Shown in pieces: positions 14,713 to 64,000 of a stretch of 64,000 nt of DNA; position 1 is the first letter of the stretch; each line of letters begins with the position of its first letter. This DNA is from Serratia marcescens (GTDB lineage Bacteria; Pseudomonadota; Gammaproteobacteria; Enterobacterales; Enterobacteriaceae): the NCBI RefSeq assembly GCF_029846115.1, contig NZ_JARVZZ010000002.1, forward strand, positions 1-64,000, given 5' to 3'. A model generated the notes under the pieces. It was not told the origin of the DNA. It did not search any database and saw only the letters and a list, made by a program, of their open reading frames with translations. Made by a program: the position numbers and the translations under genes.

Positions 14713-14903
14713 TTGCTGCCTCAACCGTCTGTAAGCCCCAGCCTCACATCAACACCGATGCCGCCTGACGGCCCGGCGGCTCACACGGTGGCGCATCCCC
14801 CACCTTCGCGCTGACACCGACATAAAATGAGCACGCCTGCGTCGTGAGCCGGCTCGCGCCGACGCCCTTTTCCTGTACCCTGCCGCCCTGTAGACTCTGC
14901 ACC

Positions 14904-20665: not shown

Positions 20666-23600
20666 TCAGTCGCCGCCCAGGGTTTTCTCTTTGTTCAGTT
20701 CTCGCTCTGGATGGGTATCCCGCACCAGGTTCTGTTCGTCCTGCTGCAGCCGGCTGCGGGTCGATACCGGCTCGCGCGCCACCTTGCGGACAGCGGCATC
20801 GCGCAGCAAGGCAGCATCCTGGCCCGTCACTTCCCGCATGACCGCCTCCGGCAGACGGTCTTTCACGTCTTCGGCGCGCAGTTCGCCGCGCGCAAGCAGT
20901 GCACGCAGCTGTTCGTCATTAAGCCCGGCCAGCCGCTGCGGATCAGGATCGTTCGTTTCACGGCCCAGTTTGTCGGCCTGCGCCTGCAGTTCACGCTGCA
21001 GGCGTTCTTCCGGGCTCTCCGGCAATTTGATGACACTGTCAGCCGCGCCGCTCTCCCGTGCAGTGGCCTTGAGCGTTTCGTCATTCACCCACACCCTGCC
21101 GCCGGTCATCGCCTGGGGATTGAACGGCACGTCGTCCCCCTGCAGCCGCACCACCACGCCACTGTCGGGATAGCGCGCCGCCAGCCGGATACCGTCCTGC
21201 ATCGTCCCGGCCAGACGGGTCTCGTTGTTGCGGCTCCCCTGCAGCGCCAAAAATTGCGCGCTGTCACTGCCGAGCACCCGGCCCTGCGTCGGCAGTCCAC
21301 CGACGCTTTTCCCCTGGGTGTCCGCCAACGGCGCCAACCAGGCGCCGGCCGCTTTGCCGTTGGCGTCATACATCGGCAGCATGGCGTGGGGCTGCGGGTA
21401 TTTCTTGCCCGGCGACACATAGTGCGCCAGCGTGTCGCCGGTAAGCTGGCTTCCGCGCAGCACCGCGCGTCCCAGCGCGTTTTCGGATAACGAGCTCGCT
21501 TTGCCGTAGAGGTCGACGGCCGCTTTCTGGCTGCCCGGCGCCATGCCCAATACCGCATCATGGGCCGTGGTGCGCGCCGTCGCCTTGCCGATGGCTTTCA
21601 GCCACCCGGCTTCGTTATCGGTGTACACCTGCACATGCTCCTTGGCACGCGACAGCGCCACATAGGCCGACGCCCGGTTGACCAGCGGCTCACGCCCGCC
21701 TTCCACCCCCTCGAGCGTGATGGCAAAACGTTCGCTGGCCCCCTGTGCGCCATGCGCGGTGATGGCATAGGCCAAATCGACGTGCCGGTCTTGTTGCTGC
21801 TCGCGGGGATTGACGGTGCGGGTTTGCTGCCCATCGGAAAGCGTGACCACGTCACCTTTTATCGCTTCGACCGTCCAGGCGCTGTTGGCCACATGCCCGC
21901 GCTCGACGTCCGATTTGGAGAAACGCATGCGGTCGCCCACGCTCACCTCGATGGTGCGCGGGTTGTACAGCGTGACGCCTTCGCGCACCGCACTGGCCGG
22001 GGAAAACTGCCGGGTGTTGCCCTCGCTGTCCTGCAGGCTGACGGTACGGGACTGACTGTCGATGTCGGCCATCCGGTAGTAGGTGTTATCCAAGAGGACA
22101 ACGGCGTCCCGGTTGCGCGCCCAGGTCTCCAGCTTGCGCAGCTCGCCGTCACGAATATTGGCGGTCTCCAGGATAGGCAGACTGACTGACTCGCCCTTCA
22201 GCTCCCCGGCTGCCTTACGCTCGCCGTGAATGCCGGCATTGATGATGTGCCGGTCGGCATTGAGGTGGGTGATGATCAGCGTATCGCGCCGGGCCGCTTC
22301 GGTGCGTCCCAGGTAATCGCTGACAATCGCGGCATGAATGTCATCCGGCCCCTTGGCGGGATATTCAACGACCGACTGCGTCGGCACCCAGGCATCGGCT
22401 TGCCGGGGTACGTTGGCCGGCGCCACCGAGCGCACCACGTCCAGCGCGCCGGGCACATCGTTATCAATCATCTTGTACACCGCCGGCTTCAGCTCGGGAG
22501 TCTGGCGTACAATCTCTTTCATGACCGCCATGTCGATGGCGCTGCGCCCCTGCGCCAGCCGGAACGGCGCGCCCGGCGCAATCGCCTCCAGTTGAGCCTC
22601 GTCACCGCTCATCACCGCGCGGCCGTTGCCCTCGGCAATCAGCGCGTAGGCGCGCGCCATGTCGCTGTTGCCCACCATCGAACTCTCATCCACCACAAAC
22701 AGCGTGTTGCGGTAGTCCGGTTTCTCGCCGCCGGCGACCTTTAGCCCCTCATCGTGCAGGAACGATGCCAGGGTTTGCGCATCGACGCCGGCTGCCTGCA
22801 TTTCCCCGACCGCGCGGTGCGTTGGCGCCAGCCCGACCACGCGGGGCCGTTCACTTTCAGGTAGCTGATTTATCCCGGCCAGAACGGCTTTGAACTGGGT
22901 GGTTTTCCCCACACCGGCATAGCCCTGTATTGCCACAAAACGGTCAGTTGTGGTTAAAATAAGGTCGACAGCCTGCCGCTGTCCCTGGGTCAGATACGGA
23001 GTCACCTTTCCCTCCCGCTGGCCGGGGCCGTCCTCGTTGTGGGTTTTGCTACTGGTTGTTACCAACGGCGGCAGGCTGTCCTTCCCTTCAGCAATCATCC
23101 GGATAATGCTTTTCTCTGCCTCGAAGCTGGCACGCGAGACCAGCAAGTCCGCCCCGACGCCGGGCGCAACATCCACTTTCAGCAGTTCCCCGCGTTTGAC
23201 CTGCGCCTCGATTTCCGTCTGGATGGCCTCCATCGACACGCCTTTGGCCGCAAAACCGAGACTGCCGGCAAGCAGTTTGGCCTGACCAAACGCGACGCTA
23301 TCTCCTTCCAGCGTCGGAATGGCCAAATGAATGGCCTGCTGCGCCGGGGTAAACAGCCCCGATTTTTGCCCGGCGATCGCGGCATCAAGCCCCTTCTCAC
23401 CAGCCAGTTGTTTGACCTGCTCACCTGCCAGACGGTACGCCGGATGCTGAGCGACTTTCTCCTGCGTCTTGCGCGCATCGAGCGCTGAATAGAGGGTGAT
23501 GTGTCCGCCGCTGCGGGCGATGCCTCTCAGTGTGGCGCTGTTAAGCTCGTTTTTCTTCACCGCGGCATAGACCGCTGCCGTACTGCTCACCGATGCGCCG

Positions 23601-49303: not shown

Positions 49304-50005
49304 ATGTCAGGAAAAACAGCAGTAGTTGTATTCAGTGGAGGTCAAGATTCAACTACGTGCTTAGTGAAGGCTTTCGCTGAGTATGACTCCGTGCACTGTT
49401 TAACCTTCGACTACGGCCAGCGCCACAGTGAAGAAATTAAAATAGCGGAGCAACTTGCAAAGAAGCTAAACGTAAGCTCACATAAAATTTTAGATGTTAA
49501 TGTAATCAATGAGTTAGCAATAAGTAGTTTGACTAGAAATGAGATTGAAGTGCCCGAACACAAAAATGCTGATTCAGATGGAATACCATCAACGTTTGTT
49601 CCTGGCAGAAACATCGTATTCCTTACCCTTGCCGCCATCTATGCATTTCAAGTAAATGCGGAAGATGTAATAACAGGTGTTTGTGAGACTGATTTTTCAG
49701 GATACCCGGACTGCCGTGATGTTTTTGTAAAAGCGTTAAACCACGCAGTAAGTTTAGGAATAGGAAGAGATATCAGGTTTGTAACGCCACTAATGTCATT
49801 AAACAAAGCTGAAACATGGGCATTAGCAGACAATATGGGATGTTTGGAACTCATCAGAGATGAAACTTTAACTTGTTACAATGGTGTTAAAAGTTTTGGA
49901 TGTGGGAAATGTGACGCATGTTTTCTACGATCGAGGGGGTTTAATGAATACCTACAAAATAAAGAAGAAATAAAAAAAAGCCTGCAAAAAAAACAGGCTA
50001 TATGA
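49304..50005 (+). CDS. queC: QueC, 7-cyano-7-deazaguanine (preQ0) synthase
   Basis: A 233-residue QueC (E. coli 231). The ATP-pyrophosphatase P-loop is [14 protein letters not shown], with [11 protein letters not shown] following. Other conserved blocks are [35 protein letters not shown] and [11 protein letters not shown]. The zinc site is [20 protein letters not shown]. QueC makes preQ0 from CDG with ammonia and ATP in the cytosol, for queuosine in tRNA or 7-deazaguanine bases in DNA. It lies between traM and traA with AT-rich codon use unlike the tra genes, so it looks acquired. Confidence 0.95.
49972..49999 (-). terminator. Rho-independent terminator for the VUT gene inside the queC 3' end
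   Basis: On the minus strand AGCCTG pairs with CAGGCT (49994-49999 and 49979-49984) and is followed by eight T residues (49979-49972). It lies 17 bp past the stop at 50016 and within the last codons of queC. Confidence 0.8.
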
Positions 50006-50015
50006 CTAATTAAAT

Positions 50016-50873
50016 TTATTCTTGAGTGAGGTATTTATTAAATAGATACCTTGCTCCATACGCAGGAAAAACATTAACAATTGCATACGCCAACTTAATT
50101 ATTACTTGAACGGCGATAATTCCTATTATTTGTTCGTTTGTCATCAAACCACTGAAAGCTATGAAACAAAAGACAACACTATCTATAACAGAGGCCACAA
50201 ATATACTGGACAGAATCCTTATATATAAGTAGCGAGAATTCGTCAGTTCTTTGATTTTACAAAGCACATATGAATTAGCCAGCTCGGAGGTAAGAAAAGC
50301 TATAGTTGATGCAAGAAATGTTGATTGTATTTGATTAATAAGGCTATTATATGGGCCATTGAATATCCATTCAGGTATAACAGGTAACTTCAGAGAAACA
50401 TAAAGCAACCCTAATATTGCCGCATTAGCAACAACACACATGTAAATGGCTTTTCTTGCCAGCCTAAATCCATAAAATTCATTCAGAAGATCTACTACTA
50501 AGAATGTAAACGGGTAAACAAAAGTACCAGGCGTAATGATGAGATCAAAGTATTGTATGTGAACTGGTTTGACTGCAGCTATATTACTAAATATATAACA
50601 AACACTAATAACCAAACAAAAAGCAACATAAGTTAACCACTGCTTTTCATTTCTATCTTTAAACTCATATTCAGTTTTAACACTTTCACCAGAGCTATAT
50701 ATTTTTCGACAAACCGCCGACACTTCTCTAGCGTTAAAATCATCAATCACCTCTGAAGATAGTAGTCTTTCGTATGGCATTGACATAACCCGCCCAGTAT
50801 TCAACACCATAACGTTAGCTTTTCCATTGAGGATATCAAATCCAATTAGCTTATATTTTATATTCGCTTCCAT
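50016..50873 (-). CDS. VUT/YhhQ-family queuosine-precursor transporter with N-terminal extension
   Basis: A 285-residue protein with six hydrophobic segments after residue 80 (WLTYVAFCLVISVCYIFSNI, TFVYPFTFLVVDLLNEFYGF, FLASTIAFLTSELANSYVLC). The PFTFLVVDLLNEFYG and ASxxAFLTSELAN motifs mark the VUT/QPTR family, which imports preQ0/preQ1-type bases; YhhQ of E. coli is 221 residues. The extra 75 N-terminal residues are soluble. Its start overlaps the XRE gene by 23 bp and it converges on queC. Confidence 0.87.
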   Translation of the reverse strand: MEANIKYKLIGFDILNGKANVMVLNTGRVMSMPYERLLSSEVIDDFNAREVSAVCRKIYSSGESVKTEYEFKDRNEKQWLTYVAFCLVISVCYIFSNIAAVKPVHIQYFDLIITPGTFVYPFTFLVVDLLNEFYGFRLARKAIYMCVVANAAILGLLYVSLKLPVIPEWIFNGPYNSLINQIQSTFLASTIAFLTSELANSYVLCKIKELTNSRYLYIRILSSIFVASVIDSVVFCFIAFSGLMTNEQIIGIIAVQVIIKLAYAIVNVFPAYGARYLFNKYLTQE

Positions 50874-52047: not shown

Positions 52048-52446
52048 TCATTCGTTAGTACTATCTGAATCAACACCAATAAAAAATCTCTCTAACTTAT
52101 CATTAACAGATTCGTTTATTTCTGAAATGATCTGCTGATAGTTATTAAGTTTTGGTTTATCTGCAACATGTGGAGCTAGAGTACTTGCACCAAGAACCTT
52201 TGCCATTGCAAGTTGAGTTTTCAATACGTTTTCCAAAAGAGTTTTGTTAAACTCCGTCTGATTAAAAGGGTCATCTTTTCTTTCCATCTGTGCCTCATAG
52301 ACTCTGAGACCGAGCTCAAGAAGCATGGAAATAACACTAGATGTACTTACTTCAGTTTCAGCCGCCCCTTCTTGGCGACGCTGTTCAACAATAGCATGAA
52401 TCTTTTCAACCGCCTCCTTGCTGACATATGCTTGAATTCTTGCCAT
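52048..52446 (-). CDS. traM: TraM relaxosome accessory protein
   Basis: A 132-residue TraM (F 127). The start at 52446 (MARIQAYVSKEAVEKIHAIV) matches F TraM MAKVNLYISNDAYEKINAII. The tetramerisation domain starts SVISMLLELGLRVYEAQMER and continues FNQTEFNKTLLENVLKTQLA; the C-terminus ends in ERFF plus an acidic tail that binds TraD. It binds GANTC sites next to oriT, of which six lie just upstream (52513-52679). Confidence 0.94.
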   Translation of the reverse strand: MARIQAYVSKEAVEKIHAIVEQRRQEGAAETEVSTSSVISMLLELGLRVYEAQMERKDDPFNQTEFNKTLLENVLKTQLAMAKVLGASTLAPHVADKPKLNNYQQIISEINESVNDKLERFFIGVDSDSTNE

Positions 52447-52865
52447 ATAATTTTTACTCCATGACATTATTAGCTGACAGATAATCTGTATGTAATTTGA
52501 GTTGGCATGCACGAATCAAATCCGACTCTAATTACGAGTCTAATGATAGCTATAAAAGCAAAATCATACAACTCGCCTCTAGGGTCGTTCCTGTTTATCT
52601 ATATGAAATTTAGTGATAACTCTATATAGAGTTGTGTATAAACTCGAATAACGACTCTAGCTAGAGTCCTTTACGACTCTAGCTACTCATCATTTTAAAA
52701 TATAACAATAACATTAAACTCTTAACTAACTGTTTTAAATATATAATTCTGCAAAATACAATTTTGCGTGGGGTGTGATGTAGTTACCACAAAGAGCGCG
52801 AATTTGTTGACTCGAGATCCCGAAAAGGCTAGATTTTCACCAGGGCTCGGAATTTTAAGGAAAAC
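52447..52865. other. oriT: oriT region with nic site and TraM-type GANTC arrays
   Basis: TTTTGCGTGGGGTGTGATG (52762-52780) is close to the F nic sequence TTTGCGTGGGGTGTGGTG; by analogy nicking is expected on the + strand near 52776/52777. A small inverted repeat GCAAAAT-ACA-ATTTTGC (52751-52767) lies beside it as in F. Two clusters of GANTC motifs, at 52513, 52524, 52536 and at 52653, 52664, 52675, are spaced 11-12 bp, i.e. on one helix face, as for TraM sites. With this polarity the leading region is to the right and the tra operon enters last. Confidence 0.9.
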
Positions 52866-53336
52866 ATGAAAAACCTCATCGTAGCGTTAATGCTGTTCAG
52901 TTCAACGGCCGCTATGGCTGATTGTTTTGACATGGCGGGTCGGGATTATCACATCGACCCGGATCTGCTACGTGCTATTTCATGGAACGAGTCACGTTTT
53001 AATCCCGTGGCTATCGGCCCAAATCCTACAACAGGGTACGGTGTGGGGTTAATGCAAATTGACTCCCAGCATTTTAACTCGCTTTCGTTGATAGGGGTTT
53101 CAGAACGGCACCTGAAACAAGATCCGTGTATGAACATCTACACCGGTGCTTATTATCTCGCGATTGCCTTTAAGAAGTGGGGAGCGACCTGGCAGGCAGT
53201 TGGTGCTTATAATGCAGGGTTTAAAGACTCTCCAAAGCAGGCGCAACGACGTTACAAGTATGCGAGTAAAATCGAGAAAACCTACCGGGCGATAAAAGCC
53301 AGCAAGCAGCAACCCCTCCTCGTTCAGAACCCGTAG
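52866..53336 (+). CDS. Orf169/GeneX-like lytic transglycosylase
   Basis: A 156-residue exported protein; the signal peptide ends AAMA. The SLT domain has the catalytic Glu in [10 protein letters not shown] (E42), the GVGLMQID block and [10 protein letters not shown] orf169 sits at the same place beside oriT. It opens peptidoglycan locally for the transfer apparatus. It is divergent from traM across oriT and is the only non-IS rightward gene of the leading region. Confidence 0.92.
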
Positions 53337-54019: not shown

Positions 54020-54847
54020 TTACTTCATTCGGTTTTTGAATTCATCCGCAATCAGCCATAACGCACGGTTCAATTTAATATCGCCATCGATACCGTTGAC
54101 CGCCCGAGTACGGGTATTTTTCCCGGTCGCGCTTTTACCGGGTAATCCGCCTTTAATCATGTTTTCCTGCACGCGCTGGAATGTCGTCCACAAATCATTG
54201 CCGTAATCTTCACGCCGACGCGGACGCAAAACTTGCGACGGCGTGATCGGGGATTTATCTTCGTACTCGTAGCGATAACTTAACGCCGCCCGCGCAAATA
54301 ATTCCTGATCGCGCTCGGACAGTGAAATGCATTTCATGGTATCGAGGTCATTATCGACGCGGTCAAATATGCCGAGCACTTCATACGCACCCTCAATTAC
54401 CTGCCCGACCACGTCCCCTTTATGCGGCACTCGAACATCACCGAACGATTGGCCAAATACCATTCCGTTGGCACAGACATAGCGGAACATGCCGGGGATC
54501 ATTTGGTAACTGCTGCTTCCGTCGTGGCTGTTCAATAATACGATTTCGGGGACTTCCTTATTGCCGGAGACAATCATATTTTCCCGGCGCAGCCGCAGCA
54601 TGTGTTTGGTATGGCCGCGTTTGCTTTCATCCCTAACGCGGGTCTGGCAGGCATAAAACGGCTGAAAACCTTCCTCGCGTAATTTATCCAGCAGCGTAAT
54701 AGTGGGGATGTAGGTGTATCGGTCACTGCGCGAATCGTGTTTATCTTCAGAAAAAACGCTCGGCACCACGTTCATTAATTCCTCGTTGGTTAACGGGCGG
54801 TCTTTACGGATGGCGTTATAACGGCCAAAACGGGAAGTCAGACGCAT
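54020..54847 (-). CDS. DUF932-family leading-region protein
   Basis: A 275-residue protein that matches the DUF932 family (YfjQ/YubP-like) by pattern: MRLTSRFGRYNAIRKDRPLT, FQPFYACQTRVRDESKRGHT, the IVLLNSHDGSSSYQMIPGMF block and CANGMVFG. It has no signal or membrane segment. The function is unknown, though members are frequent on plasmids and genomic islands. It lies downstream of the 123-residue gene in the same direction. Confidence 0.75.
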   Translation of the reverse strand: MRLTSRFGRYNAIRKDRPLTNEELMNVVPSVFSEDKHDSRSDRYTYIPTITLLDKLREEGFQPFYACQTRVRDESKRGHTKHMLRLRRENMIVSGNKEVPEIVLLNSHDGSSSYQMIPGMFRYVCANGMVFGQSFGDVRVPHKGDVVGQVIEGAYEVLGIFDRVDNDLDTMKCISLSERDQELFARAALSYRYEYEDKSPITPSQVLRPRRREDYGNDLWTTFQRVQENMIKGGLPGKSATGKNTRTRAVNGIDGDIKLNRALWLIADEFKNRMK

Positions 54848-54902
54848 AATATTCTCCTTTCTCTTTGAGTAATGCCGGACAATTTTTTAGACCGGCGATG
54901 AA

Positions 54903-55274
54903 TTAACGGTATGAGTGATTGATAGCCAGCTGAAGGTGTAGCCGATAACGCGCATGCTCCCAGGCAACGACGCCGGTCTCGCCAAAATACGCACCGGCCA
55001 AACGCTGCGCTTTAATCCAATGTTGCGCGACGGCATACGCAATTTTCGGTTTATCTGACGGCGAGTTATCGACGCCGTTAAACACCACCCGATCCGTCAT
55101 CGTGTTAAAAATTTCATACAGCGATTGCGCCAGTTCGTCAGGGGACAAATACACGCCGTGTAATTCCTCCATTAATTCCAGTTGACGGATCATGATGTTT
55201 TCCGCGTCGGGATATTTTCCTGCCCATCGTTTGGAAGATTCTCTGGTGGCGGTGTTGACGTTTTGCGTGTTCAT
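54903..55274 (-). CDS. Leading-region protein with MNTQNVN start (paralogue 1)
   Basis: A 123-residue soluble protein, MNTQNVNTATRESSKRWAGK. From SPDELAQSLYEIFNTMTDRV to WEHARYRLHLQLAINHSYR it is paralogous to the gene at 61390-61836. AGGAG precedes the start. Directly upstream is repeat copy A, so its promoter probably lies in that repeat. Function unknown. Confidence 0.65.
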   Translation of the reverse strand: MNTQNVNTATRESSKRWAGKYPDAENIMIRQLELMEELHGVYLSPDELAQSLYEIFNTMTDRVVFNGVDNSPSDKPKIAYAVAQHWIKAQRLAGAYFGETGVVAWEHARYRLHLQLAINHSYR

Positions 55275-55610
55275 CCTGCTCTTGCTCCTCTCTGGTGGTT
55301 ATTCCATCGTTCGGTGAGTTCCCTGGCGGCAAAGGGCGACGGAGCAACGGCGTAAGGAGACACACAAGGGGCGAGACGAAAAGTTTTTACCTGGAAAAAG
55401 TTTTCGGTGAAGTGCATTTAACCCCTTGCGGGGTGACGCGACGGTGCTACGAACAGCCCTCCGCCGTGGAACGGCCGTCCGATGGCGCACCGGAAACGCA
55501 GCGAGGAGGAACACGGCCGACACGGCGACAAGCCGGGGCGACCTTAGCGTTCCTCGCCTGGGCGAGAAACAGTGAAAAGCGGCGCCGGCATCGCCGGCTG
55601 CAAGCGAGCC
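55275..55610. repeat. Leading-region long repeat, copy A (diverged)
   Basis: About 335 bp upstream of the first MNTQNVN gene share blocks with copies B and C: GCGACGGTGCTAC, GAGGAACAC-CGACACGGCGACA, GCCGGGGCG-CCTTAGCG and GCGGCGCCGGCATCGCCGGC. It is rich in inverted repeats. Beyond 55610 similarity fades. Confidence 0.7.
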
Positions 55611-56011
55611 CATCGCGTGACGGATGGAAGCCCGCCAGGGGGGAGACGGCGTGCCGGCTCCCTGCGCAGCACGACAGCCGGGTCCGAAGGGCACGCCCAG
55701 GCATCCTGCGGAAACCCGATTCACCGAAGAAATACCGGCAGCCAACAAGGGAGAGGTAGGAAAATCGCCACCAGGTCTTTGTGACAGCATACGAGAAGGG
55801 AAAGAATGGCCGGAGCCGCAGGCGCCGGCCTTTCGTTCTGTTCGTCTTTTACCGCGCGGTGCTGACCGAAGCCACCGTTACCAGGTAGCACACGGCGTCG
55901 GCAAAAATTGCACAGAGGTTCACACCCCGATCGGTAAATTCGCCCGGTAGCGGCAGCGTGTCGTTTTCTGTCATGCGTTATCGGGCAGGATCGCCCTGCC
56001 CGCCTCCGTTG
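55611..56011. other. Gap downstream of the methylase-like gene
   Basis: GC-rich sequence without a supported gene. Hairpins include GGCCGG...CCGGCC (about 55806-55830) followed by TTTCGTT and CGGGCAGG-ATCG-CCCTGCCCG (about 55982-56002). The latter lies just past the stop at 56012 and may be a terminator, though no T-run follows. Confidence 0.5.
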
Positions 56012-56812
56012 TTAGCGATACATCGGCCAGCGCGTGGACGTCACGCGATACCAAAACGGCGTATACATCTCGCGCTGATACTTCAGTGTCAGGCTGTTGC
56101 CGATCACCACGCGCGCCGGGATACCCAGCAGCGACAGCTGGATGTAACACATCCGCGCCGCCACCGGATCGATGTCCACGCAGTCGGCGCGCAGCTGCGT
56201 TTGCGGGTTATAGCCCCGCGCCAGCATCACTTTGGCAAACGCGATCACCATTCTGCCCGCGCCGCAGGTCGGTTCGGACAGCGTGATATACGGTTCATTT
56301 TCCAACGCCGCCAGCCGATCACCGGCTACCAGTCCCGCCATCAGCTCGGAGAGATGAAACGGCGTGAAAAACTGGCCGATGTTGCCGCTGCCCAGCTCCA
56401 GCTCCATAAACAGCGAGCCGAGAAAGTCCCCCATGCCCTGATCCAGCCCGATGATCAGCCATGAATACAACTGCGCCATGCGCTGCTGGTCGGCTTTTTC
56501 ATAGCGCTGGATGGTGGCCAGATACTCCGCCTCGATGTCCGGCGACTTTAACAGCAGATTTTCCAGCGCACAGGCCGTCAACTTCACAAAATCGCTGAAT
56601 ACTTCATAGCGATGGTGATAACGCGCCGTTTCACGAAACGTACTCAAAAACGCCTTACGCGGATCATCGCCGGTGATTGTCCGTTTCCGTCCCGGTACAG
56701 GGTCGGCGGATTTTGAGGGTTCTACCGTATCAGCCCTGACGTTCTTTTCCGCCGGGCGCACTGCATCGACAGGCACCGAAAACAGGGAATCAAAAGAGAG
56801 TTGTGACATCAA
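56012..56812 (-). CDS. N-6 DNA methylase-like protein (orphan)
   Basis: A 266-residue protein with a Rossmann methyltransferase core. The SAM motif I is LSEPTCGAGRMVIAFAKVML, preceded by GNIGQFFTPFHLSELMAGLV, the usual lead-in of HsdM-type methylases, and followed by ADCVDIDPVAARMCYIQLSL (acidic SAM-binding loop). I see no (N/D)PP(Y/F) catalytic motif: where it should follow there is VVIGNSLTLKYQREMYTPFW. It may bind but not modify DNA, or use a variant motif. No restriction partner is near. An IS and a former hairpin lie upstream. Confidence 0.75.
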   Translation of the reverse strand: MMSQLSFDSLFSVPVDAVRPAEKNVRADTVEPSKSADPVPGRKRTITGDDPRKAFLSTFRETARYHHRYEVFSDFVKLTACALENLLLKSPDIEAEYLATIQRYEKADQQRMAQLYSWLIIGLDQGMGDFLGSLFMELELGSGNIGQFFTPFHLSELMAGLVAGDRLAALENEPYITLSEPTCGAGRMVIAFAKVMLARGYNPQTQLRADCVDIDPVAARMCYIQLSLLGIPARVVIGNSLTLKYQREMYTPFWYRVTSTRWPMYR

Positions 56813-56878
56813 TTAGCCTCCGGGTCAGTGAATAGCCGCCCCGAAACTGAACTGAACCCCGATAGTTGGACTGTTCCG

Positions 56879-57715
56879 CTATGCGGCTTGCAAGGTCTGA
56901 GTTCTAAATTCCACAGGACTCAGGCCTTGTAACCTTAAACTGATTCGCTCGTGATTGTAGTAGTGGATATACTCCCTGATAGCTGTTTCCAACTCATTTA
57001 TATCGTTGAAAGTATTTAAGTAAAAACACTCTGACTTCAATGTACCAAAGAAATTTTCTACTACCGCGTTATCCAGGCAATTTCCTTTACGGGACATACT
57101 TTGAACAACCTGTTTTTCTTGAAGTATTTCTTGATAGCCAATCATTTGGTACTGCCACCCTTGATCTGAGTGTAAAACTGGCTTTTCGGCGTCATTAATC
57201 TTTGAAAAAGCTTTTCTTAACATGGTGTTAATCATACCCATGTGAGGACGCCGCGCCAGTGAAAATGAGATAATTTCGCGGTTAAACAGATCCACTATTG
57301 GAGATAAATAGAGTTTTTCACCATTTACGGAGAACTCTGTTACGTCAGTTGCCCATTTTTGGTTTGGGCGTACCGCTGTAAACTCTCGGTTAAGAAGGTT
57401 TGGAGCCACTTTCCCATACATCCCTTTGTATGAGTTATATTTCTTTCGTCTTACGGGAGATGATAACCCCATGTTTTTCATCAGTTTGTAGACTGTCTTA
57501 TGGTTGATTTTAATCCCTTCTCTTTTCAAGGCTACAGTGATCCTTCGATAACCATATCGGCCTTTATGTTGATGAAAAATAGATGTTATTTTTTCCTTTT
57601 CATCTCGGTGAGACTCGTTACTCAGGCGTTTCTTTTGGTAAAAGAACGTGCTGCGAGGTAACTCAGCAACACGCAGCAGTGTATTTAGCTTATGTTGAGA
57701 CCTCAATTCATCCAC
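56879..57715 (-). CDS. IS150-group OrfB transposase (DDE domain)
   Basis: A 278-residue reading frame. An HTH_21 region (HQHKGRYGYRRITVALKREG) is followed by the DDE domain: first Asp in WATDVTEFS, second in LHSDQGWQY and Glu in AVVENFFGTLKSECF. It is normally made as an OrfAB fusion by -1 frameshifting from the overlapping frame upstream. Confidence 0.93.
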   Translation of the reverse strand: MDELRSQHKLNTLLRVAELPRSTFFYQKKRLSNESHRDEKEKITSIFHQHKGRYGYRRITVALKREGIKINHKTVYKLMKNMGLSSPVRRKKYNSYKGMYGKVAPNLLNREFTAVRPNQKWATDVTEFSVNGEKLYLSPIVDLFNREIISFSLARRPHMGMINTMLRKAFSKINDAEKPVLHSDQGWQYQMIGYQEILQEKQVVQSMSRKGNCLDNAVVENFFGTLKSECFYLNTFNDINELETAIREYIHYYNHERISLRLQGLSPVEFRTQTLQAA

Positions 57716-58202
57716 TACTTGCGTTTTTGCTGTGGCCTTGCTGAATCAAGGCCTGTAGCTTTTTTAGATATGCATTCTCGGCACGTAAGTAATCCAACTC
57801 GTCTTCGGGCGTCAAAAATTCAGTTTTTTTAGCTTGAGCACCCGTATTGGTTTGCTTTCGTTTCTTCATCACCGACAGAGCCTCCATTCCGCCGTTCTTG
57901 TAACTTTCAAGCCAACGAGCAAGTTGTAGCCTTGAGATGTTAAATTTCGCCGCTGCTTGTCGTACCGATAGTTGATTATTCAGTATGTCATGGATAACAG
58001 CTTCCTTGACTGCTGGAGCGTACTTACGCCGTTTTTTATCTGAAATTGCGATGTCTTCACCATGCTTTCTATATGTTGAAATCCAAAGCTGGATGGTGGC
58101 TTTATGAACGCCAAATATCTTGGCTGTTCGTTTAACCCCATCATGAGTGGAAAGATAGTGTTGAACAACTTTTCGCCGAAACTCTTCCGTATATTGCACC
58201 AT
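57708..58202 (-). CDS. IS150-group OrfA with two helix-turn-helix motifs
   Basis: About 164 residues from MVQYTEEFRRKVVQHYLSTH (an ATG 12 bp upstream is possible; GGGG sits 7 nt before the chosen start). Two helix-turn-helix units (TAKIFGVHKATIQLWISTYR and AAAKFNISRLQLARWLESYK) precede a C-terminal leucine zipper (DYLRAENAYLKKLQALI). It binds the element ends. Its 3' end overlaps OrfB by 8 bp. Confidence 0.92.
   Translation of the reverse strand: MVQYTEEFRRKVVQHYLSTHDGVKRTAKIFGVHKATIQLWISTYRKHGEDIAISDKKRRKYAPAVKEAVIHDILNNQLSVRQAAAKFNISRLQLARWLESYKNGGMEALSVMKKRKQTNTGAQAKKTEFLTPEDELDYLRAENAYLKKLQALIQQGHSKNASSG
57734..57766 (-). promoter_or_regulatory. Programmed -1 frameshift signal
   Basis: On the minus strand CTAAAAAAGC gives an A6G slippery site (57759-57765) in the leucine-zipper codons, followed by a stem of GGCCTTG and CAAGGCC. 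This is the usual arrangement for making the OrfAB transposase in the IS150 group. Confidence 0.8.
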
Positions 58203-58275
58203 TAGTGACCCCATGAAGTTGATTTCATTGTGTCCAACTTATGGGGTTCACTTCAAAACGGGGCGGCTCGCGTTA

Positions 58276-58539
58276 TCAGGCCATCGCCCGCGTTAACTCC
58301 AGCGCACGCAGAACGTGCCCCCACTCACTGCCCCGCATCGACGGCACCCGCACCGATTTGCCCTTGCGAACACATCCGGCGATATGACGCCCGAACGACC
58401 GCAGATCCGGATCGACGTCGGCGGCGGCTATATCGCCGCGCGCGATCCGCCGCTGGCGTTTCACCTGCTCGCACTCAGCCTGCAGGCGCTTTACATACTC
58501 GTCGGTTACTGTCATGATGCTTGGGTCTGTTGATTTCAT
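58276..58539 (-). CDS. Small leading-region protein, unknown
   Basis: An 87-residue basic protein. The start at 58539 (MKSTDPSIMTVTDEYVKRLQ) has GGAG 8 nt upstream; an in-frame ATG at 58632 would lie in the previous gene. A helical, Arg/Lys-rich middle (AECEQVKRQRRIARGDIAAA) suggests a nucleic-acid or protein binder, but no family is recognised. It lies just outside the IS and before the former hairpin. Confidence 0.6.
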   Translation of the reverse strand: MKSTDPSIMTVTDEYVKRLQAECEQVKRQRRIARGDIAAADVDPDLRSFGRHIAGCVRKGKSVRVPSMRGSEWGHVLRALELTRAMA

Positions 58540-58628
58540 GGTTGAGACTCCATGTAGTTTGATAGAACGCCGGTCTAACTTTCCTAGGGGTAAACCGGCA
58601 TGAGGAAGCAGCGGAAACGCTGCTTTTT

Positions 58629-58976
58629 TCATTTACGGGTTTGCGTCTCCCGGCTTAACACCTCCTTATTGATCCGCGCCAGAATGGCGCTGTGCGGTAA
58701 CGTCACCACGTCGCGGAACCGGAAGTAACGCTCCCCGACCTTGGCGTAGACAGTGGTCACCTCCCCGCAATACATTTCGGCCAGCTTGAAAGTTTCGCTA
58801 TGTGGATCGCCCGCCCAGTCTTTCGGGTACATGACTGCGATGGCATCCATAAACTCCATCAGGCTGATCTCCGCCACTTCCGAGCGCGCTTCTTGCTCTC
58901 GCAGCTGCCAATAAGCGGCCTCGGTGCTCGCATCCCATGCCATGCGGTTTTCGGTGCTGATTTCGCTCTGATACAT
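58629..58976 (-). CDS. Leading-region protein, unknown (115 aa)
   Basis: A 115-residue soluble acidic protein from MYQSEISTENRMAWDASTEA, with GAGGAGA about 9 nt upstream. The middle SEVAEISLMEFMDAIAVMYP reads as helices; FKLAEMYCGEVTTVYAKVGE follows. No family is recognised. It precedes the 87-residue gene in the same direction, 89 bp apart. Confidence 0.6.
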   Translation of the reverse strand: MYQSEISTENRMAWDASTEAAYWQLREQEARSEVAEISLMEFMDAIAVMYPKDWAGDPHSETFKLAEMYCGEVTTVYAKVGERYFRFRDVVTLPHSAILARINKEVLSRETQTRK

Positions 58977-59012
58977 CGTTTTTTCTCCTCTGTTATGGTG
59001 GCTTACCACAGG

Positions 59013-59432
59013 TTAAATGCGGGTTAACGTGCCGTAGTACGGCAACGTGTGGCCATCGTCCCCGCGCCGCATCCGGCCATCTTCTGACACTTCGACGAAA
59101 ACGCCGGTATCGAGGCACAGCCAGATGAAGCCTTTTTGCATAAAGCGATACCCGGTTGTGCTCAGGCAAACAGGGCGCACAGGCTCGACCTGTTCCACGG
59201 CGTACACCGTGCAACCCTTTGCGCTGGTTTCGCGCGCAAATCGCATTACCGCATCAAACGGATTGCAGGCGTTGGTGATGTGGCTGCAACTCAGGTTCAC
59301 CGTGCCCCCGATGCACGGCGCCGAGAACTTGACAGAAAAACGACCGATCTCTTGAGTAACGAACAGACAGGCTTTTACATCCCAATCATCAGGCGACTCT
59401 TTGACTACGGAATTGATATTGTTAATTTTCAT
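59013..59432 (-). CDS. Leading-region protein, unknown (139 aa)
   Basis: A 139-residue soluble protein, MKINNINSVVKESPDDWDVK. It has several cysteines (KACLFV, APCIGG, LSCSH, NACNP, KGCTV) and a beta-rich look. GAGGGGA lies upstream. It belongs to the same leftward set as its neighbours. No family is recognised. Confidence 0.6.
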   Translation of the reverse strand: MKINNINSVVKESPDDWDVKACLFVTQEIGRFSVKFSAPCIGGTVNLSCSHITNACNPFDAVMRFARETSAKGCTVYAVEQVEPVRPVCLSTTGYRFMQKGFIWLCLDTGVFVEVSEDGRMRRGDDGHTLPYYGTLTRI

Positions 59433-59486
59433 ACTCAGTTCCCCTCTTGTGATGTTCCGGGCTACGAGAACGCAGCCCGACGAAAA

Positions 59487-59864
59487 TCAGTAATCTGCCG
59501 ACAGTTCATCTTTCAGGGAAATGAACGAATCGTAGACGCGGTCTGCCTCGGCCTCCGTCAGCATAAAACCCCGCTTTGATGCCGCGCCCATAAAGACCGG
59601 CCGGTCTTTCAATGGCAAGTCACACAGATAATTCATCGCCATTTCTAACAACCGTGATTCAAAGATTTCGTAATACAGGCCACATGAATGCCCGGCCTGC
59701 TTCTCCATCCGGGCCAGCACGACATCTGCGCGGATCACATCAAAGGCATTTGAGGAATTCAGGTTGCGGACAAAACCGTCAGTACGGAGCACACTGGTTT
59801 TTTCCCCATATCTTTCAGAGCGTTCCTGAGCGGCGGTTTTGACGTTGACGTTTTGTGTGTTCAT
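59487..59864 (-). CDS. Leading-region protein with MNTQNVN start, different body
   Basis: A 125-residue protein. The start at 59864 (MNTQNVNVKTAAQERSERYG) is fixed by alignment with the two other MNTQNVN genes and by GGAAGG upstream. After the shared leader the body (NAFDVIRADVVLARMEKQAG, ESRLLEMAMNYLCDLPLKDR) does not resemble theirs. Repeat copy B lies directly upstream. Function unknown. Confidence 0.65.
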   Translation of the reverse strand: MNTQNVNVKTAAQERSERYGEKTSVLRTDGFVRNLNSSNAFDVIRADVVLARMEKQAGHSCGLYYEIFESRLLEMAMNYLCDLPLKDRPVFMGAASKRGFMLTEAEADRVYDSFISLKDELSADY

Positions 59865-60318
59865 GCTGCTTTCCTTCCTGGGTGGTTGATTTATCTCTCG
59901 TCGGATCCTTTCGCGGCAAAAAAGCTGACGTAGCGACGGCGAACGGGTGACAGCAAGGGCGCCGCTTGCGGCGTGCACTTCACCCTTGCGGGCAACCGGG
60001 CGACGGTGCTACAAAAGCGGCCGCGTAAGGGCCGATGAGAGATAACCACCGGTGAGATGAGCAGGAACACACCCGACACGGCGACACGCCGGGGCGTCCT
60101 CAGCGTTCGTCGCCAGGTGACGAACAGTTAAAGCGGCGCCGGCATCGCCGGCAGCAAGCGCATGCTGTTGACCTTGGTGTTGTTGATGTTGGCTTTCAGA
60201 CCTTAGCCGGCAGGCCCGAAACCGCTACGCGGGTTCGGCGAGACTTGGCGACCGCACGCGGGCGACTAGTCGAGTAGGGCTCGATGGCTGGGCGCTTGCG
60301 ACCGGCCACCGGAGGAAG
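59865..60318. repeat. Leading-region long repeat, copy B
   Basis: About 450 bp upstream of the second MNTQNVN gene, highly similar to copy C at 61837-62272. It has many inverted repeats: GTTCGTC...GACGAAC (60104-60125), CGACTAGTCG (about 60263-60272), CCGAAACCGC...GCGGGTTCGG (about 60214-60237) and GGCGCCG repeats. Such structure could fold into a duplex promoter in single-stranded DNA. Its leftmost part is the untranslated leader of the gene. Confidence 0.85.
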
Positions 60319-60759
60319 CTCATAGGAGGTTTGGGAAAGGTATTTTGATAGGCGCCGGCGATCGGCAGATCACCGGCTTTGTTTGAAAGATTCATTCCTG
60401 TAAAGCCACTCCACAACAAGCTGTTTTTCTTTAAGAAAAAGAAGCATGTTAATTGCGGTGTAAACGGCCGCCGGAGGATTTTGCTCACCGCGGGACCACT
60501 TCCCGTAGGTGTTGTAATGCACACCCTTTTGTTGTATTCATAATCGCGTAATTTTGATGCATCTGCCTGTGCGGCAGTAAAGTGTTGTTGTTAACTCAGA
60601 ATTTCTAAGCTGCCTGTACGGCAATATTCAAGCTACATATTCACTTTGTGTAATAACGCTTCCATCGTACTAAATCTGAACCGCGTAAATCTGTAGGGTA
60701 TCCCTTACTACTGAACCATTCAGCAAACTCTTTAGCTTCTTGTGCTTAGGCACATCTGT
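60319..60759. other. Gap with a doubtful Ash-like open frame
   Basis: A 99-residue leftward frame (60225-60524) ends RWPVASAQPSSPTRLVARVR then SPSLAEPA, whose codons lie in repeat B. The similar end occurs in repeat C (62180-62398). Such ends appear in proteins called Ash-like after phage P4. Lack of a good start and conserved N-terminus makes translation doubtful. The rest of the gap holds no gene. Confidence 0.35.
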
Positions 60760-61047
60760 TCACTTAAGACGTTCACTGGCCAGCTGGTACACATCGCCAC
60801 GCTCACGTTTGCCGACGGCAACCACCGCGATAATCAGGCAATCGTCGATCACTTCGTAAACCAGACGAAACCCCGAGGCGCGCAGCTTGATTTTGTAACA
60901 CCCCGGCATCCCCCGCAGTTTTGCTGACGGAATATGCGGGTTCTCGCAGCATTTTTTCAGCTTTTTGGCGAACTGCTGCTGCAGCGCTTTGTCCAGCTTG
61001 CCCCACTCTTTCAGCGCCGACTCACGAAATTTGACCGTATACGTCAT
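60760..61047 (-). CDS. stbE: RelE/StbE-type toxin
   Basis: A 95-residue RelE-superfamily toxin: MTYTVKFRESALKEWGKLDK, then FAKKLKKCCENPHIPSAKLR, GCYKIKLRASGFRLVYEVID and IIAVVAVGKRERGDVYQLAS. The basic residues typical of RelE (KLR, RxxG-RLVY, GKRER) are present, so it should cleave mRNA on the ribosome. It overlaps the antitoxin gene by 4 bp and stabilises the plasmid by killing cured cells. Confidence 0.93.
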   Translation of the reverse strand: MTYTVKFRESALKEWGKLDKALQQQFAKKLKKCCENPHIPSAKLRGMPGCYKIKLRASGFRLVYEVIDDCLIIAVVAVGKRERGDVYQLASERLK

Positions 61048-61295
61048 GCGAACTGATCCAGATCGATATCAACCAACGCTTCGCTACGTCGCTCATTAAC
61101 CAATTTCACCAGCTCCTGATCATCGAGGGCATCGAGCATTTGCTCGTATAGCGCCGCCGGCACGCAATAAAATTCTGGCTTATTGCGGTTCAGTATGGCC
61201 ACCGGAAAACCGGCGCCGGCGCCAACGGTTTCCATTGGGTTTTTCTTCAGCTCGCTGATGCTCGCACTTGTGTCACTTAAAATGATATTTGGCAT
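61044..61295 (-). CDS. stbD: StbD/RelB-type antitoxin (Phd/YefM fold)
   Basis: An 83-residue antitoxin, MPNIILSDTSASISELKKNP, with the Phd/YefM N-terminal DNA-binding fold (FPVAILNRNKPEFYCVPAAL) and a helical toxin-binding C-terminus (DDQELVKLVNERRSEALVDI). First gene of the operon. It and the toxin should repress the promoter through the palindromes upstream. Confidence 0.92.
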   Translation of the reverse strand: MPNIILSDTSASISELKKNPMETVGAGAGFPVAILNRNKPEFYCVPAALYEQMLDALDDQELVKLVNERRSEALVDIDLDQFA

Positions 61296-61310
61296 GGTAT
61301 CCTCGACTCA

Positions 61311-61380
61311 ATAAGACCGCTTAACAGGTCTTATTATACCATCAAAAAGACCTATTAACAGGTCTTTTGATATAATATCA
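61311..61380 (-). promoter_or_regulatory. stbDE promoter with operator palindromes
   Basis: TTAACAGGTCTT occurs twice (about 61321-61332 and 61353-61364), and AAAAGACCT pairs with AGGTCTTTT (about 61344-61367). The sequence TATACC/TATAAT nearby could supply promoter elements. Paired AGGTCTT boxes are the expected antitoxin operator. Confidence 0.65.
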
Positions 61381-61389
61381 TCCAGCTGG

Positions 61390-61836
61390 TCAGTTATACG
61401 AGTGCTCCACCGCCATCTCTTGCGCCAGTCTGTAACGTGCATGCTCCCAAGCGCGCTGACCGATTTCCCCGAAGTCACGCTGTGCAACCCGTTGCCCTCT
61501 GACCCAGTATTGGATCATTTCGTAGGCAACTCGCGGTTTGTCCGGCTGCTTATAATCAGCCCCGCAGCTTTGGACAAGCTCAGTCATCCGGCCGAAAATC
61601 ACATAGAGCGCCTGCTCCAGCTCGTCGGGTGACGTGCTGCTTTGCGCATACAGATCATTCAGGTCGTCTAAATAGCAAAACTCCATTTCCAACGCTCGAA
61701 CGGCGGCGGGATATTGCACGCCGGGCTTTACCCACGGTGCCGAGGCTTCTGGTTCGCACAATCCCGCCGTTTCATATCTTTCAGAGTGTTCCTTCGTGGC
61801 GGTGTTGACGTTGATGTTGACGTTCTGTGTGTTCAT
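61390..61836 (-). CDS. Leading-region protein with MNTQNVN start (paralogue 2)
   Basis: A 148-residue protein, MNTQNVNINVNTATKEHSER. The C-terminal two-thirds (SPDELEQALYVIFGRMTELV, QYWVRGQRVAQRDFGEIGQR, AWEHARYRLAQEMAVEHSYN) are clearly paralogous to 54903-55274. AGGAGAA lies upstream of the ATG, right beside repeat copy C. Function unknown. Confidence 0.65.
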   Translation of the reverse strand: MNTQNVNINVNTATKEHSERYETAGLCEPEASAPWVKPGVQYPAAVRALEMEFCYLDDLNDLYAQSSTSPDELEQALYVIFGRMTELVQSCGADYKQPDKPRVAYEMIQYWVRGQRVAQRDFGEIGQRAWEHARYRLAQEMAVEHSYN

Positions 61837-62272
61837 GCTGTTCTCCTTCCTGGGTGGGTTATCGATCTCTCGTCGGAACCTTGCGCGGCAAAAAAAGCTG
61901 ACGTAGCGACGGCGAACAGGGACAGCAAGGGCGCCGCTTGCGGCGATTCATCCTCCCTTGCGGGCCCAGGGCGACGGTGCTACAAAAGCGGCCGCGTGAG
62001 GCCGATGAGAGATAACCCCAGAGGGATGAGCAGGAACATACCCGACACGGCGAAACGCCGGGGCGTCCTTAGCGATCGCCGGCACAGCGGCGAACAGTGA
62101 AAGTGGCGCCGGCATAGCCGGCTGCAAGCGAAGGGGTTTGTACCTGGCTTTCAGACCTTAGCCGGCAGGCCCGAAACCGCTATGCGGGTTCGGCGAGACT
62201 TGACGCCCGCGCGCGGGCGACTAGTCGAGTAGGGCTCGAGGGCTGGGCGCTTGCGACCGGCCACCGAAGGAA
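61837..62272. repeat. Leading-region long repeat, copy C
   Basis: About 435 bp, highly similar to copy B from the shared GTTCATGCTG start context through ACTAGTCGAGTAGGGCTCGA to GCGACCGGCCACCG. Same hairpins as in B. It precedes the third MNTQNVN gene. The distance between B and C is about 1.97 kb, so recombination between them would delete stbDE. Confidence 0.85.
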
Positions 62273-62472
62273 GCGCCAGCTGGCGTATTGTTGTTTGCAG
62301 CTGTTGGCACCATATTCAAAACATGGGAAACGCCGAATCCAACCAAGAAAAGGCCCGATGCTACCCCACGGCTTAACCACACAGCGAATCACTTTCACTA
62401 ATGAATGGACATAGCACCGAGAGGATATGATTCATAACGCACGTAAAGGGGCCAAGCCAATAATCAGGCAAG

Positions 62473-62495
62473 AAAAAGGCGCCGCCAGGCGCCTT
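62473..62495 (-). terminator. Rho-independent terminator of the small membrane genes
   Basis: On the minus strand AAGGCGCC pairs with GGCGCCTT around TGGC and is followed by TTTTC. It lies 44 bp downstream of the stop at 62539. Confidence 0.8.
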
Positions 62496-62538
62496 GTTAT
62501 TATTATGCTTTCTTTTTGGCCTGTTAAAACACCGGTCA

Positions 62539-62727
62539 TTACCTTGATTTACGCATCAATATCAATTCACAAAAGGCTATCACTACGAGTGACACCATCA
62601 CCGGGAATGCCCATGATTGCCACGTATCACTGGCCCGAGCAATAACAGGAACCTTATCCCGAAGCAGTATTTCCAATAAATAGTATGCTCCGAGTCCCAA
62701 AATCCACTCAATCATGATTAATTTCAT
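62539..62727 (-). CDS. Small two-helix membrane protein
   Basis: A 62-residue protein, MKLIMIEWILGLGAYYLLEI, with a second helix FPVMVSLVVIAFCELILM and a basic end. AAGGAAA is about 8 nt upstream. It follows the 118-residue membrane gene by 48 bp and is followed by a terminator, so they form an operon. Not recognised. Confidence 0.6.
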   Translation of the reverse strand: MKLIMIEWILGLGAYYLLEILLRDKVPVIARASDTWQSWAFPVMVSLVVIAFCELILMRKSR

Positions 62728-63253: not shown

Positions 63254-63979
63254 TTAGCAGCACATCAGCCGATTGGGAATTCGGGCATCATTATCAGCCC
63301 TGTCAGCAGCGGATAAATCGCTGTTGATCAGACTGACCTGTAGACAATTTTCCCAGAATGGTCTCGCTGACCAGAGGTAGCAATCTAGTTCGGCAAGGCA
63401 TGGGAATCGACTCGTCCACGCCTGTACCAACCCGAACAAGTCACAATCCGCTATTCCCTGCTGCTTAGCACGGCGTACCCAGCGATTAAGTTCCCCCGGA
63501 GTGATGAATGCAAGCTCTATCTCCGCCTGTGCTTTACGCACCTGGTAACGACGCCGTTTATGCTGTCGGATGTTGTCATCGATGCGCGCCTGCCGGGTGT
63601 GTTTCATCGTCAGCCGATGCTCGAACCGCTGACGGCGGCGGCGGTTCACTTCTGGAAACAGCGTGTCGCGAGTGTCGCCGGGCAACGGGGAATAACAGTG
63701 CTCTCCCCTGCTGGCGATAAGGGTGTCGAGCGCGTCCATATAGTCTTCTTTGCGCGTGGCATGGCGGCGATCGCCGGGCTGGTAGGTTACATCAATCATG
63801 CGAAGATCCTTGGCTGAAAGTGTGGGCCGTCCGGTTAACTGGCGGAAAAACGCCATAGCATATGGGTAGACGGGCAACCGTCTGCCCGCTTCACGCCGGG
63901 CTTCGACCTGCGCGATGGCCTGCCAGACGGCCTGCCGATACGGGTGCCACGGCACCAGAGCGAGATGATTTGGGATCAC
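63254..63979 (-). CDS. psiA: PsiA plasmid SOS inhibition protein A
   Basis: A 241-residue protein in PsiA pattern. The GTG start at 63979 is chosen since IPNHLALVPWHPY then aligns with F PsiA MSARSQALVPLS, and GGAGG lies 10 nt upstream; a TTG at 63985 is also possible. Shared blocks are YPYAMAFFRQLTGRPTLSAK, PLPGDTRDTLFPEV, KAQAEIELAFITPGELNRWV and TSRFPCLAELDCYLWSARP. psiA follows psiB, which helps suppress SOS during entry; psiB should lie just beyond the window edge. Confidence 0.87.
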   Translation of the reverse strand: MIPNHLALVPWHPYRQAVWQAIAQVEARREAGRRLPVYPYAMAFFRQLTGRPTLSAKDLRMIDVTYQPGDRRHATRKEDYMDALDTLIASRGEHCYSPLPGDTRDTLFPEVNRRRRQRFEHRLTMKHTRQARIDDNIRQHKRRRYQVRKAQAEIELAFITPGELNRWVRRAKQQGIADCDLFGLVQAWTSRFPCLAELDCYLWSARPFWENCLQVSLINSDLSAADRADNDARIPNRLMCC

Positions 63980-64000
63980 AGGCAATGCCCTCCCATCCGC

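Follow-up and report, generated by a model that had tools for sequence, protein, structure and literature searches.

Introduction

Which plasmid genes are active during the first minutes after entry into a new host, when restriction and CRISPR cannot yet respond, is decided by single-strand promoters. The closest described systems are the elements Frpo1 and Frpo2 of plasmid F and ssi1 to ssi3 of ColIb-P9. According to the portions of the published work covered here, live imaging of F places leading-gene expression early and makes it Frpo-dependent, with a toxin-antitoxin system between the two Frpo copies (PMC9849209), and Samuel et al. 2024 (PMC11541004) describe 13,089 promoters homologous to Frpo, as well as Frpo and Frpo-like candidates in the Serratia marcescens plasmid pC110-KPC; related literature, likewise covered in part, includes PMC8744291, PMC12826799 and PMC10104558. 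Here we describe three hairpin-rich repeats, A, B and C, in a 64,000-nucleotide (nt) stretch of S. marcescens DNA (hereafter the window; NZ_JARVZZ010000002.1, positions 1 to 64,000), which is part of contig C2 (94.8 kb) of a 5.2 Mb genome in three contigs. The repeats had been singled out in an original prediction, made from the letters of the DNA, as candidate Frpo/ssi-type single-strand promoters.

We conclude that A, B and C are very probably single-strand promoter elements of the Frpo/ssi family, their promoter activity being predicted from sequence. Frpo1, Frpo2 and ssi1 to ssi3 are already known; what sets the present elements apart as new is a start-codon clamp (a pairing of the start codon with a block far upstream) and an N-terminal leader shared by genes whose bodies are otherwise unrelated. 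The clamp and the leader are established by computation, as are the homology, the orientation and the strand-specific structure of the elements.

Repeats in the leading region of an F-type plasmid

The window belongs to an F-type conjugative plasmid, with - strand genes for a TraI relaxase (20666-25972), TraM (52048-52512) and PsiA (63254-63985) and a CopA-like RNA at 18386; the closest among the plasmid records listed, at 99.9% over 42% of 54-64 kb, comes from Serratia marcescens. A nic-like motif of the origin of transfer (oriT), GCGTGGGGTGT followed by GATG, lies at 52766-52780 on the + strand, and the same motif occurs in the F oriT on its T-strand side (locus L010, - strand, around 19161). 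We take cleavage to fall between GCGTGGGGTGT and the G. Since the motif is on the + strand, the + strand is the transferred strand (T-strand) and enters the recipient first via the region to the right of the motif. A, B and C start 2.5-9.1 kb to the right of it and the genes downstream of them are on the - strand, in agreement with the proposal that the + strand is the template of leftward leading genes. That all leading genes except one and an insertion sequence (IS) point leftward holds for the main leading genes, an SLT gene (52866-53336, +) being the sole rightward one, but the IS is no exception, as its transposase open reading frames (ORFs; 56879-57715 and 57708-58214) are both on the - strand.

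B (59865-60319) and C (61837-62275) are 85.6% identical over 458 aligned positions (E 9e-147), and A shares a core with B (85.6% over 104 positions) and with C (81.0% over 105) plus short blocks, much as first described. The repeats had been said to end at the ribosome-binding sites of genes beginning MNTQNVN; the gene starts at 55274, 59864 and 61836 stand, but all three repeats enter coding sequence, and the repeat families D1, D5 and D8 (of D1-D11) extend into the first codons. The right end given for A, 55610, also had to be moved, as stretches of A that match F reach 55680. As delimited here on the T-strand, element A (55275-55710, right end approximate) consists of a proximal rod (a long imperfect hairpin), an A+T-rich tip hairpin, a core hairpin and an F-like distal module, while element B has a shorter rod, a G+C-rich tip, the core hairpin and a ColIb-like distal module, and element C is built as B. 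Their richness in inverted repeats is reflected in fold z-scores of -4.4 (A), -3.0 (B), -5.8 (C) and -8.6 (D), calculated for 380 nt of the transferred strand against 12 dinucleotide shuffles, where D is a fourth copy on the same plasmid (C2:67187-67382). Four more relatives lie on C3, the second small contig of the same genome.

Element D as a whole (C2:66916-67383, equal to L014:2916-3383), to the right of the window, precedes a gene of 97 amino acids (aa; MAQQNVKGATTK); behind it there is also a large reading frame that looks ParB-like by position. On C3 (L015, C3:28001-48000) the four elements lie on one strand, with gene starts that match those on a MOBP Serratia plasmid (L030).

Homology to Frpo and ssi elements

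For comparison, 55 elements were cut in T-strand orientation from 20 loci, some of them by hand without a verified gene start (e.g. Kp28_a, Kp29_c, L017_D and L018_D). The relatives come mostly from plasmid records, the PsiB-based collection in genome contigs contributing 4 loci. Within 21.5 kb of F, positions 55597-55680 of A match the region upstream of ssb (Frpo2; E 1.7e-12) and positions 55613-55680 match the region upstream of the presumed ygeA (Frpo1; E 8.6e-10, with a second piece at 2e-4), the names Frpo1 and Frpo2 being assigned by positions in the part of PMC9849209 covered. We scanned 14 stretches with a profile of 15 A/B/C-type elements, none of them taken from F, ColIb-P9 or pC110-KPC. 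It found Frpo2 (E 7.8e-17) and Frpo1 (E 7.1e-11) of F, four elements in the leading region of pC110-KPC (L032; each E <=9.3e-22) and three of ColIb-P9 (E 1.8e-8, 2.7e-7 and, weakly, 0.0032), as well as D and relatives on Klebsiella, Pantoea, IncN, Pseudomonas and MOBP Serratia plasmids. An extra match in ColIb, at 1843-1812 (E 0.0064), lies outside its leading genes. The profile had no match at E<=0.1 in the transfer side of the window (1-52000) or in the stretches L009, L011 and L016. Both Frpo elements of F, the comparison first proposed for these repeats, are thus matched by the extended copy A and found by the profile, and the significant homology to the elements of F, ColIb-P9 and pC110-KPC supports the Frpo/ssi interpretation. 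The four pC110-KPC matches are presumably those of Samuel et al. 2024. Rfam holds no family for the element; its sole match at E<=1 in 54800-62600 was a CRISPR repeat model with E 0.11, below the gathering score.

Like A, B and C, the F elements lie in the leading region, on the T-strand and before leading genes, and they are homologous to ours in the tip hairpin (element A), the core hairpin and the distal module. They differ in that B and C lack the A+T-rich tip and in that the first 36 nt before the start behind Frpo1 form only a small hairpin in the fold. ColIb-P9 is alike in having three dispersed copies before leading genes and shares its type of distal module with B and C, but has another proximal rod, and its three genes have no common N-terminal leader. 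In pC110-KPC there are four homologous elements in the leading region, and the two that were aligned are F-type. Repeated upstream sequences before several plasmid genes are also known from the IncN plasmid pKM101, whose conserved upstream (CUP) sequences are described as regulatory sites bound by ArdK (PMC6289460, covered in part). A, B, C and most placed relatives directly precede a gene start, in gene orientation. By eye the elements are mosaic, with an F-like distal module in A and L017_B and a ColIb-like one in B and C.

We would like to note two further occurrences. A stretch of an IncN plasmid near stbC (L026:7916-8080) matches the profile (E 1.1e-9), and a 4.9-kb contig labelled Streptomyces morookaense (L019), probably a contaminant, bears a PsiB gene as well as the edge of a Frpo-like element.

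The core hairpin

The core hairpin of A (55568-55608, +) is common to F, ColIb-P9 and most relatives, and its counterparts in B and C lie at 60123-60162 and 62093-62132 (both +). Across a set of 21 sequences (20 distinct), picked for having the hairpin and including four from the own genome, its 10 pairs are formed in 200 of 200 cells, and 5 of the 10 have changed on both sides. A covariance model of these 21 members recovers 22 of 32 known elements at E<1e-6 in the loci searched, with one further weak match in ColIb at 1815-1841 (E 0.0015). Seven core-model matches at E<=0.001 occur in the own genome, three on C2 and four on C3, on one strand per contig, four of the seven being members of the model; the large contig has none at that threshold. 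Among 295 genomes of the order, 8 have a core-model match under stricter filters (the own genome included), all in one family.

Which strand carries the structure

The consensus structure comprises 42 rod and hairpin pairs, paired in 95.2% of cells, with 20 pairs changed on both sides; none of 500 shuffles was as good and slid versions scored far below it, though the structure was derived from the same alignment. To see which strand the structure serves, we used a symmetric mismatch test in which both strands were folded over 450 nt with Watson-Crick pairs only, the pairs common to both folds were kept, and single mismatches inside helices were read in T-strand letters. Over the 55 elements this gave G.T 43 vs A.C 6, A.G 79 vs C.T 17, G.G 17 vs C.C 2 and T.T 21 vs A.A 12. 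In 28 representatives there were 19 G.T and 3 A.C, where composition predicts about 0.95:1 (P 3e-4 if independent, which they are not fully), and the G.T:A.C counts for single elements were 1:0 in B, 1:0 in C and 2:0 in D.

When folding was opened to all pairs, all 28 representatives were more stable as T-strand than as complement, by a mean of -15.0 kcal/mol vs -5.8 in shuffles. Paer_a and Paer_b have identical fold values, so the representatives hold at most 27 independent sequences; others share ancestry too, and binomial values are indicative only. Fresh elements that played no part in forming the idea behaved in the same way (T-strand more stable in 14/14; -10.7 vs -5.8; 12/14 beyond their own shuffle mean). 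For single elements the difference was -16.0 in B (shuffles -7.1 +/- 2.3), -19.5 in C (-4.7 +/- 2.0) and -17.2 in D (-7.0 +/- 2.4). The letters of an mRNA would be complementary to the T-strand, so that a role in RNA alone would reverse both the mismatch and the stability bias; it is the transferred strand, and not RNA, that has kept the structure. The strand bias of tolerated mismatches thereby offers a test, usable on many plasmids from sequence alone, of which strand of a repeat bears its structure.

The start-codon clamp

In 32 elements the start region was compared with the stretch between 460 and 120 nt upstream of the gene, and the longest complementary run was recorded, one mismatch being allowed, also at an end. 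A complement of 10-16 nt that covers the ATG, sited 200-252 nt upstream, was found in 21 of them. For gene A the start-codon side (mRNA -4 to +11) is 55264-55278 (-) and its upstream partner 55503-55517 (+; 11/15 complementary); for gene B they are 59854-59868 (-) and 60059-60073 (+; 12/15), and for gene C 61826-61840 (-) and 62028-62042 (+; 11/15). Complements of at least 12 nt occur in 20 of the 21 clamped elements and in none of 83 control genes from six of the same loci (one control, L022:4239, is itself behind an F-type element); the ATG is covered in 16 controls, at scattered places and by 8-11 nt, and by 10-11 nt in 5 of them. The two sides covary. Among 11 distinct combinations, position -1 is C-G in 5, G-C in 4 and A-T in 2, position +4 is A-T in 9 and C-G in 2, and position +9 is A-T in 9, G-C in 1 and unpaired in 1, while +2, which the start codon fixes, is unpaired in 5.

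Of 14 fresh elements, 13 could be assigned a gene, by a script that favours a leader-like start, and 6 of these genes have the leader described below. All six have a clamp of 12-15 nt, among them a new start, ATGCGCACG, matched by an upstream CGTGCGCAT, whereas none of the seven fresh genes without the leader does. In predicted mRNAs the ribosome site has a mean unpaired probability of 0.29 in the full-length leader vs 0.71 when the mRNA begins in the rod (21/21 elements), and the AUG alone 0.24 vs 0.54 (20/21). We found neither a start-codon clamp nor a shared N-terminal leader among the listed open-licence papers on Frpo and leading regions, as judged by titles and the beginnings of abstracts, and neither start-codon pairing nor such a leader is mentioned in the text covered of Samuel et al. 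2024. The clamp would be a simple and testable reason for a possible silence of leading genes in donors.

A leader shared by unrelated proteins

The gene behind A (54903-55274, -; 123 aa, no Pfam or NCBIfam match) has the MNTQNVN leader. The gene behind B (59487-59864, -; 125 aa) begins with MNTQNVNVKTAAQE and has a body unlike that of A, and the gene behind C (61390-61836, -; 148 aa) begins with MNTQNVNINVNTATKE. The consensus behind these elements, with variants, is M(N/H/S)T(Q/R/H)NV..KTA..E. Fifteen same-plasmid pairs were compared, one of them a Pseudomonas pair with a different leader. In 14 of these, the two proteins have between 8 and 20 of their first 20 residues in common (identity counts without a random control) and the bodies have no similarity at E<=0.01; the exception is the pair of window genes A and C, whose bodies are 46% identical. 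In plasmid SCBI, the protein body encoded behind the C-type element has 82% identity over 90 residues with a window protein that has no leader (58629-58976), and this leaderless relative argues that the leader comes with the element, not with the protein.

At synonymous sites the leader is invariant, N being AAC in 29/29 and V being GTC in 25/25 cases (15 distinct leaders). Moreover, CAAAACGTCAAAACCGCGGCTCCCGAAACTC is present in both Frpo elements of F (L010:11569-11599 and 16959-16989); translated by eye it becomes QNVKTAAPET, almost the leader MNTQNVKTAAPEST of one of the fresh genes, and no gene is annotated in F at either stretch. The simplest reading is that a nucleic-acid constraint lies behind the conservation of the leader. 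When the first 25 residues of a single leader gene were used as a tblastn query, 1,020 of 72,556 plasmid records matched at E<=1, not all necessarily cassettes, so the leader could serve to look for early-acting genes; it marks genes recruited to early expression, whatever their function.

The Pseudomonas pair comes from a plasmid with anti-CRISPR genes and two elements (L027:7631-8080 and 14251-14721), whose genes have a common leader of their own, MNNNTQKQQQKPAQGASSK. One of the two bodies is homologous to an SCBI protein with the MNTQNVN leader.

Candidate promoter and proposed mechanism

Elements of the A/B/C group have, on the 3' arm of their rod, CC(C)TTG, then 16-18 nt ending in TGC, then TAC. 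From this motif and its geometry we propose candidate promoters on the + strand, the non-template strand, at 55426-55453 in A (TTGCGG-16-TACGAA), 59986-60015 in B (TTGCGG-18-TACAAA) and 61958-61986 in C (TTGCGG-17-TACAAA), each with TGC before the second hexamer. Of the 55 elements, 19 have the pattern TTG-N15-19-TAC. In 16 of these the spacer is 16-18 nt and TGC is present; the remaining three (SmP_b, SmP_d and C3_a) have a 19 nt spacer and no TGC and may be chance. In the consensus fold the 5' arm contributes an AGCA that pairs with TGCT; what remains of the second hexamer falls in an internal loop. When six tagged fresh elements were aligned, GGTGCTACG was kept in five and TTGCTATAAG stood in the sixth. 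A consensus scan gave no leftward promoter-like site within A, B or C, at chance level (11 sites vs 11.6 in shuffles); an ordinary duplex promoter, named beforehand as a finding that would tell against single-strand promoters, was thus not seen inside the repeats.

We propose the following mechanism. On the + strand entering the recipient, each element would fold into its rod, and host RNA polymerase would use a promoter in the rod duplex. Our preferred candidate is the 3'-arm sequence TTGCGG, 16-18 nt and TGC-TAC(G/A)AA, whose second hexamer would lie partly in a bubble. The template within the folded strand would be the 5' arm, so that transcription would run leftward into the leading genes. 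On duplex plasmid DNA these hexamers would face away from the genes, so that folding would also set the direction. In this sub-family the rod also takes in the Shine-Dalgarno sequence and the start codon, the ATG pairing with the block some 200-250 nt upstream. Read-through from the duplex plasmid would thus yield a long mRNA that hides its own start codon and is silenced by the clamp, while an mRNA begun inside the rod would lack the upstream block and leave the start codon open. Promoter, Shine-Dalgarno sequence, start codon and the first 15-20 or so codons may move as one cassette before unrelated genes, which would explain the shared MNTQNVN leader. What is inferred, as distinct from computed, is the promoter position, transcription from the elements and the translational lock. 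That the cassette has two locks, such that only entering single-stranded DNA (ssDNA) both aims the promoter at the gene and yields an mRNA with a free start codon, is a tentative proposal that we hold to be somewhat less probable than its negation. If it is true, recombination can bring any gene under zygotic control via a short leader peptide dictated by DNA structure.

Weighing the evidence

Several observations weigh against the reading of A, B and C as single-strand promoters with a clamp. The core model misses 9 of the 32 known elements (Pste a-c, Ekob a-b, Paer a-b, the IncN stretch and the third ColIb element) and reaches D weakly (E 0.0027). A is the least typical element in its folding: its single informative mismatch is C.A (G.T:A.C 0:1), and its strand difference of -9.3 is no clear excess over shuffles (-6.4 +/- 2.6). 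Of the 13 fresh elements to which a gene was assigned, one has the strict promoter pattern; judged by consensus the candidate promoter is weak, and what aligns with it in F is not a good sigma-70 match. On the 5' arm of F an alternative, TTGACG-17-TTTTGT, could be the promoter instead; we prefer the 3'-arm candidate since the second hexamer of the alternative is not kept in aligned relatives. The clamp was not found in 11 of 32 elements (D, SCBI_D, OW_c, Kp28_c, C110_b, two Paer, three SmP and F Frpo1), 3 of them behind tagged genes, although SCBI_D was counted on a misplaced gene start and C110_b and F Frpo1 cover the ATG with only 8 nt, which for the Frpo1 gene, the one F gene compared, is in the chance range. 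C's best clamp run, 10 nt, is inside the control range. Finally, the contrast between long and short mRNAs is partly expected for any self-complementary leader cut free of its partner.

The elements could chiefly be single-strand initiation sites, at which RNA polymerase makes primers for second-strand synthesis, with gene expression secondary. Frpo is reported, in the parts of PMC7690428 and PMC7736820 covered, to yield primers in vitro besides transcripts, and several copies with a conserved core hairpin outside the rod could serve priming. A pure primer site, however, needs neither a position directly before a gene start, as in A, B, C and most relatives, nor a start codon within the structure, as in 21 of 32, and we consider this account unlikely, if the most serious of the alternatives. 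We give about half that weight to a riboregulator, in which the elements would be structured leaders of ordinary duplex-driven mRNAs and the fold would matter in RNA. The clamp would indeed form in RNA too, and full-length leaders are predicted to hide the ribosome-binding site; but the mismatches and the stability favour the strand that is never mRNA (G.T 43 : A.C 6; 28/28 and 14/14), F-type elements keep, by eye, a homologous stretch at the base of the rod that has no start codon in it, and the elements have no leftward promoter-like site, within the limits of the chance-level scan.

The paired changes might also have arisen by template switching that perfects imperfect palindromes rather than by selection on structure. 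Long quasi-palindromes are a substrate for template-switch correction, and the elements are just that, yet neither the strand bias of the leftover mismatches nor the invariant synonymous sites of the leader would be accounted for. Decay of C to T on ssDNA could add G.T but not the excess of A.G (79 vs 17) and G.G (17 vs 2), and composition explains about 1.5-fold of each, so that we regard this explanation as quite improbable. Hairpin-rich, G+C-rich repeats also look like remnants of a P4-like ash/immunity region, which the original prediction had itself named as a refutation. No Ash match was found at E<=1 in 8 ORFs of the repeats, the homology to Frpo/ssi elements is significant, and in the own genome the elements occur only on the small contigs; we give such an origin next to no credence. 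The interpretation of A, B and C as Frpo/ssi-family elements is therefore the one we retain.

Neighbouring features

Between B and C lie toxin-antitoxin frames of the RelE/Phd type (60760-61295; named from relatives), as flmAB lies between Frpo1 and Frpo2 in the part of the F literature covered. B and C being direct repeats, recombinational loss of the segment between them would be punished, given these frames inside. A terminator-like hairpin (62476-62495, both strands) separates element C from the psiA-side genes to its right. The IS insertion (56820-58260), with its two leftward transposase frames, lies between an N-6 methylase gene and the genes behind element B. Further to the left, at 49304-50873, traM and the pilin side of the tra operon are separated by queC and a queuosine-precursor-transporter-like gene (both named after the SCBI relative).

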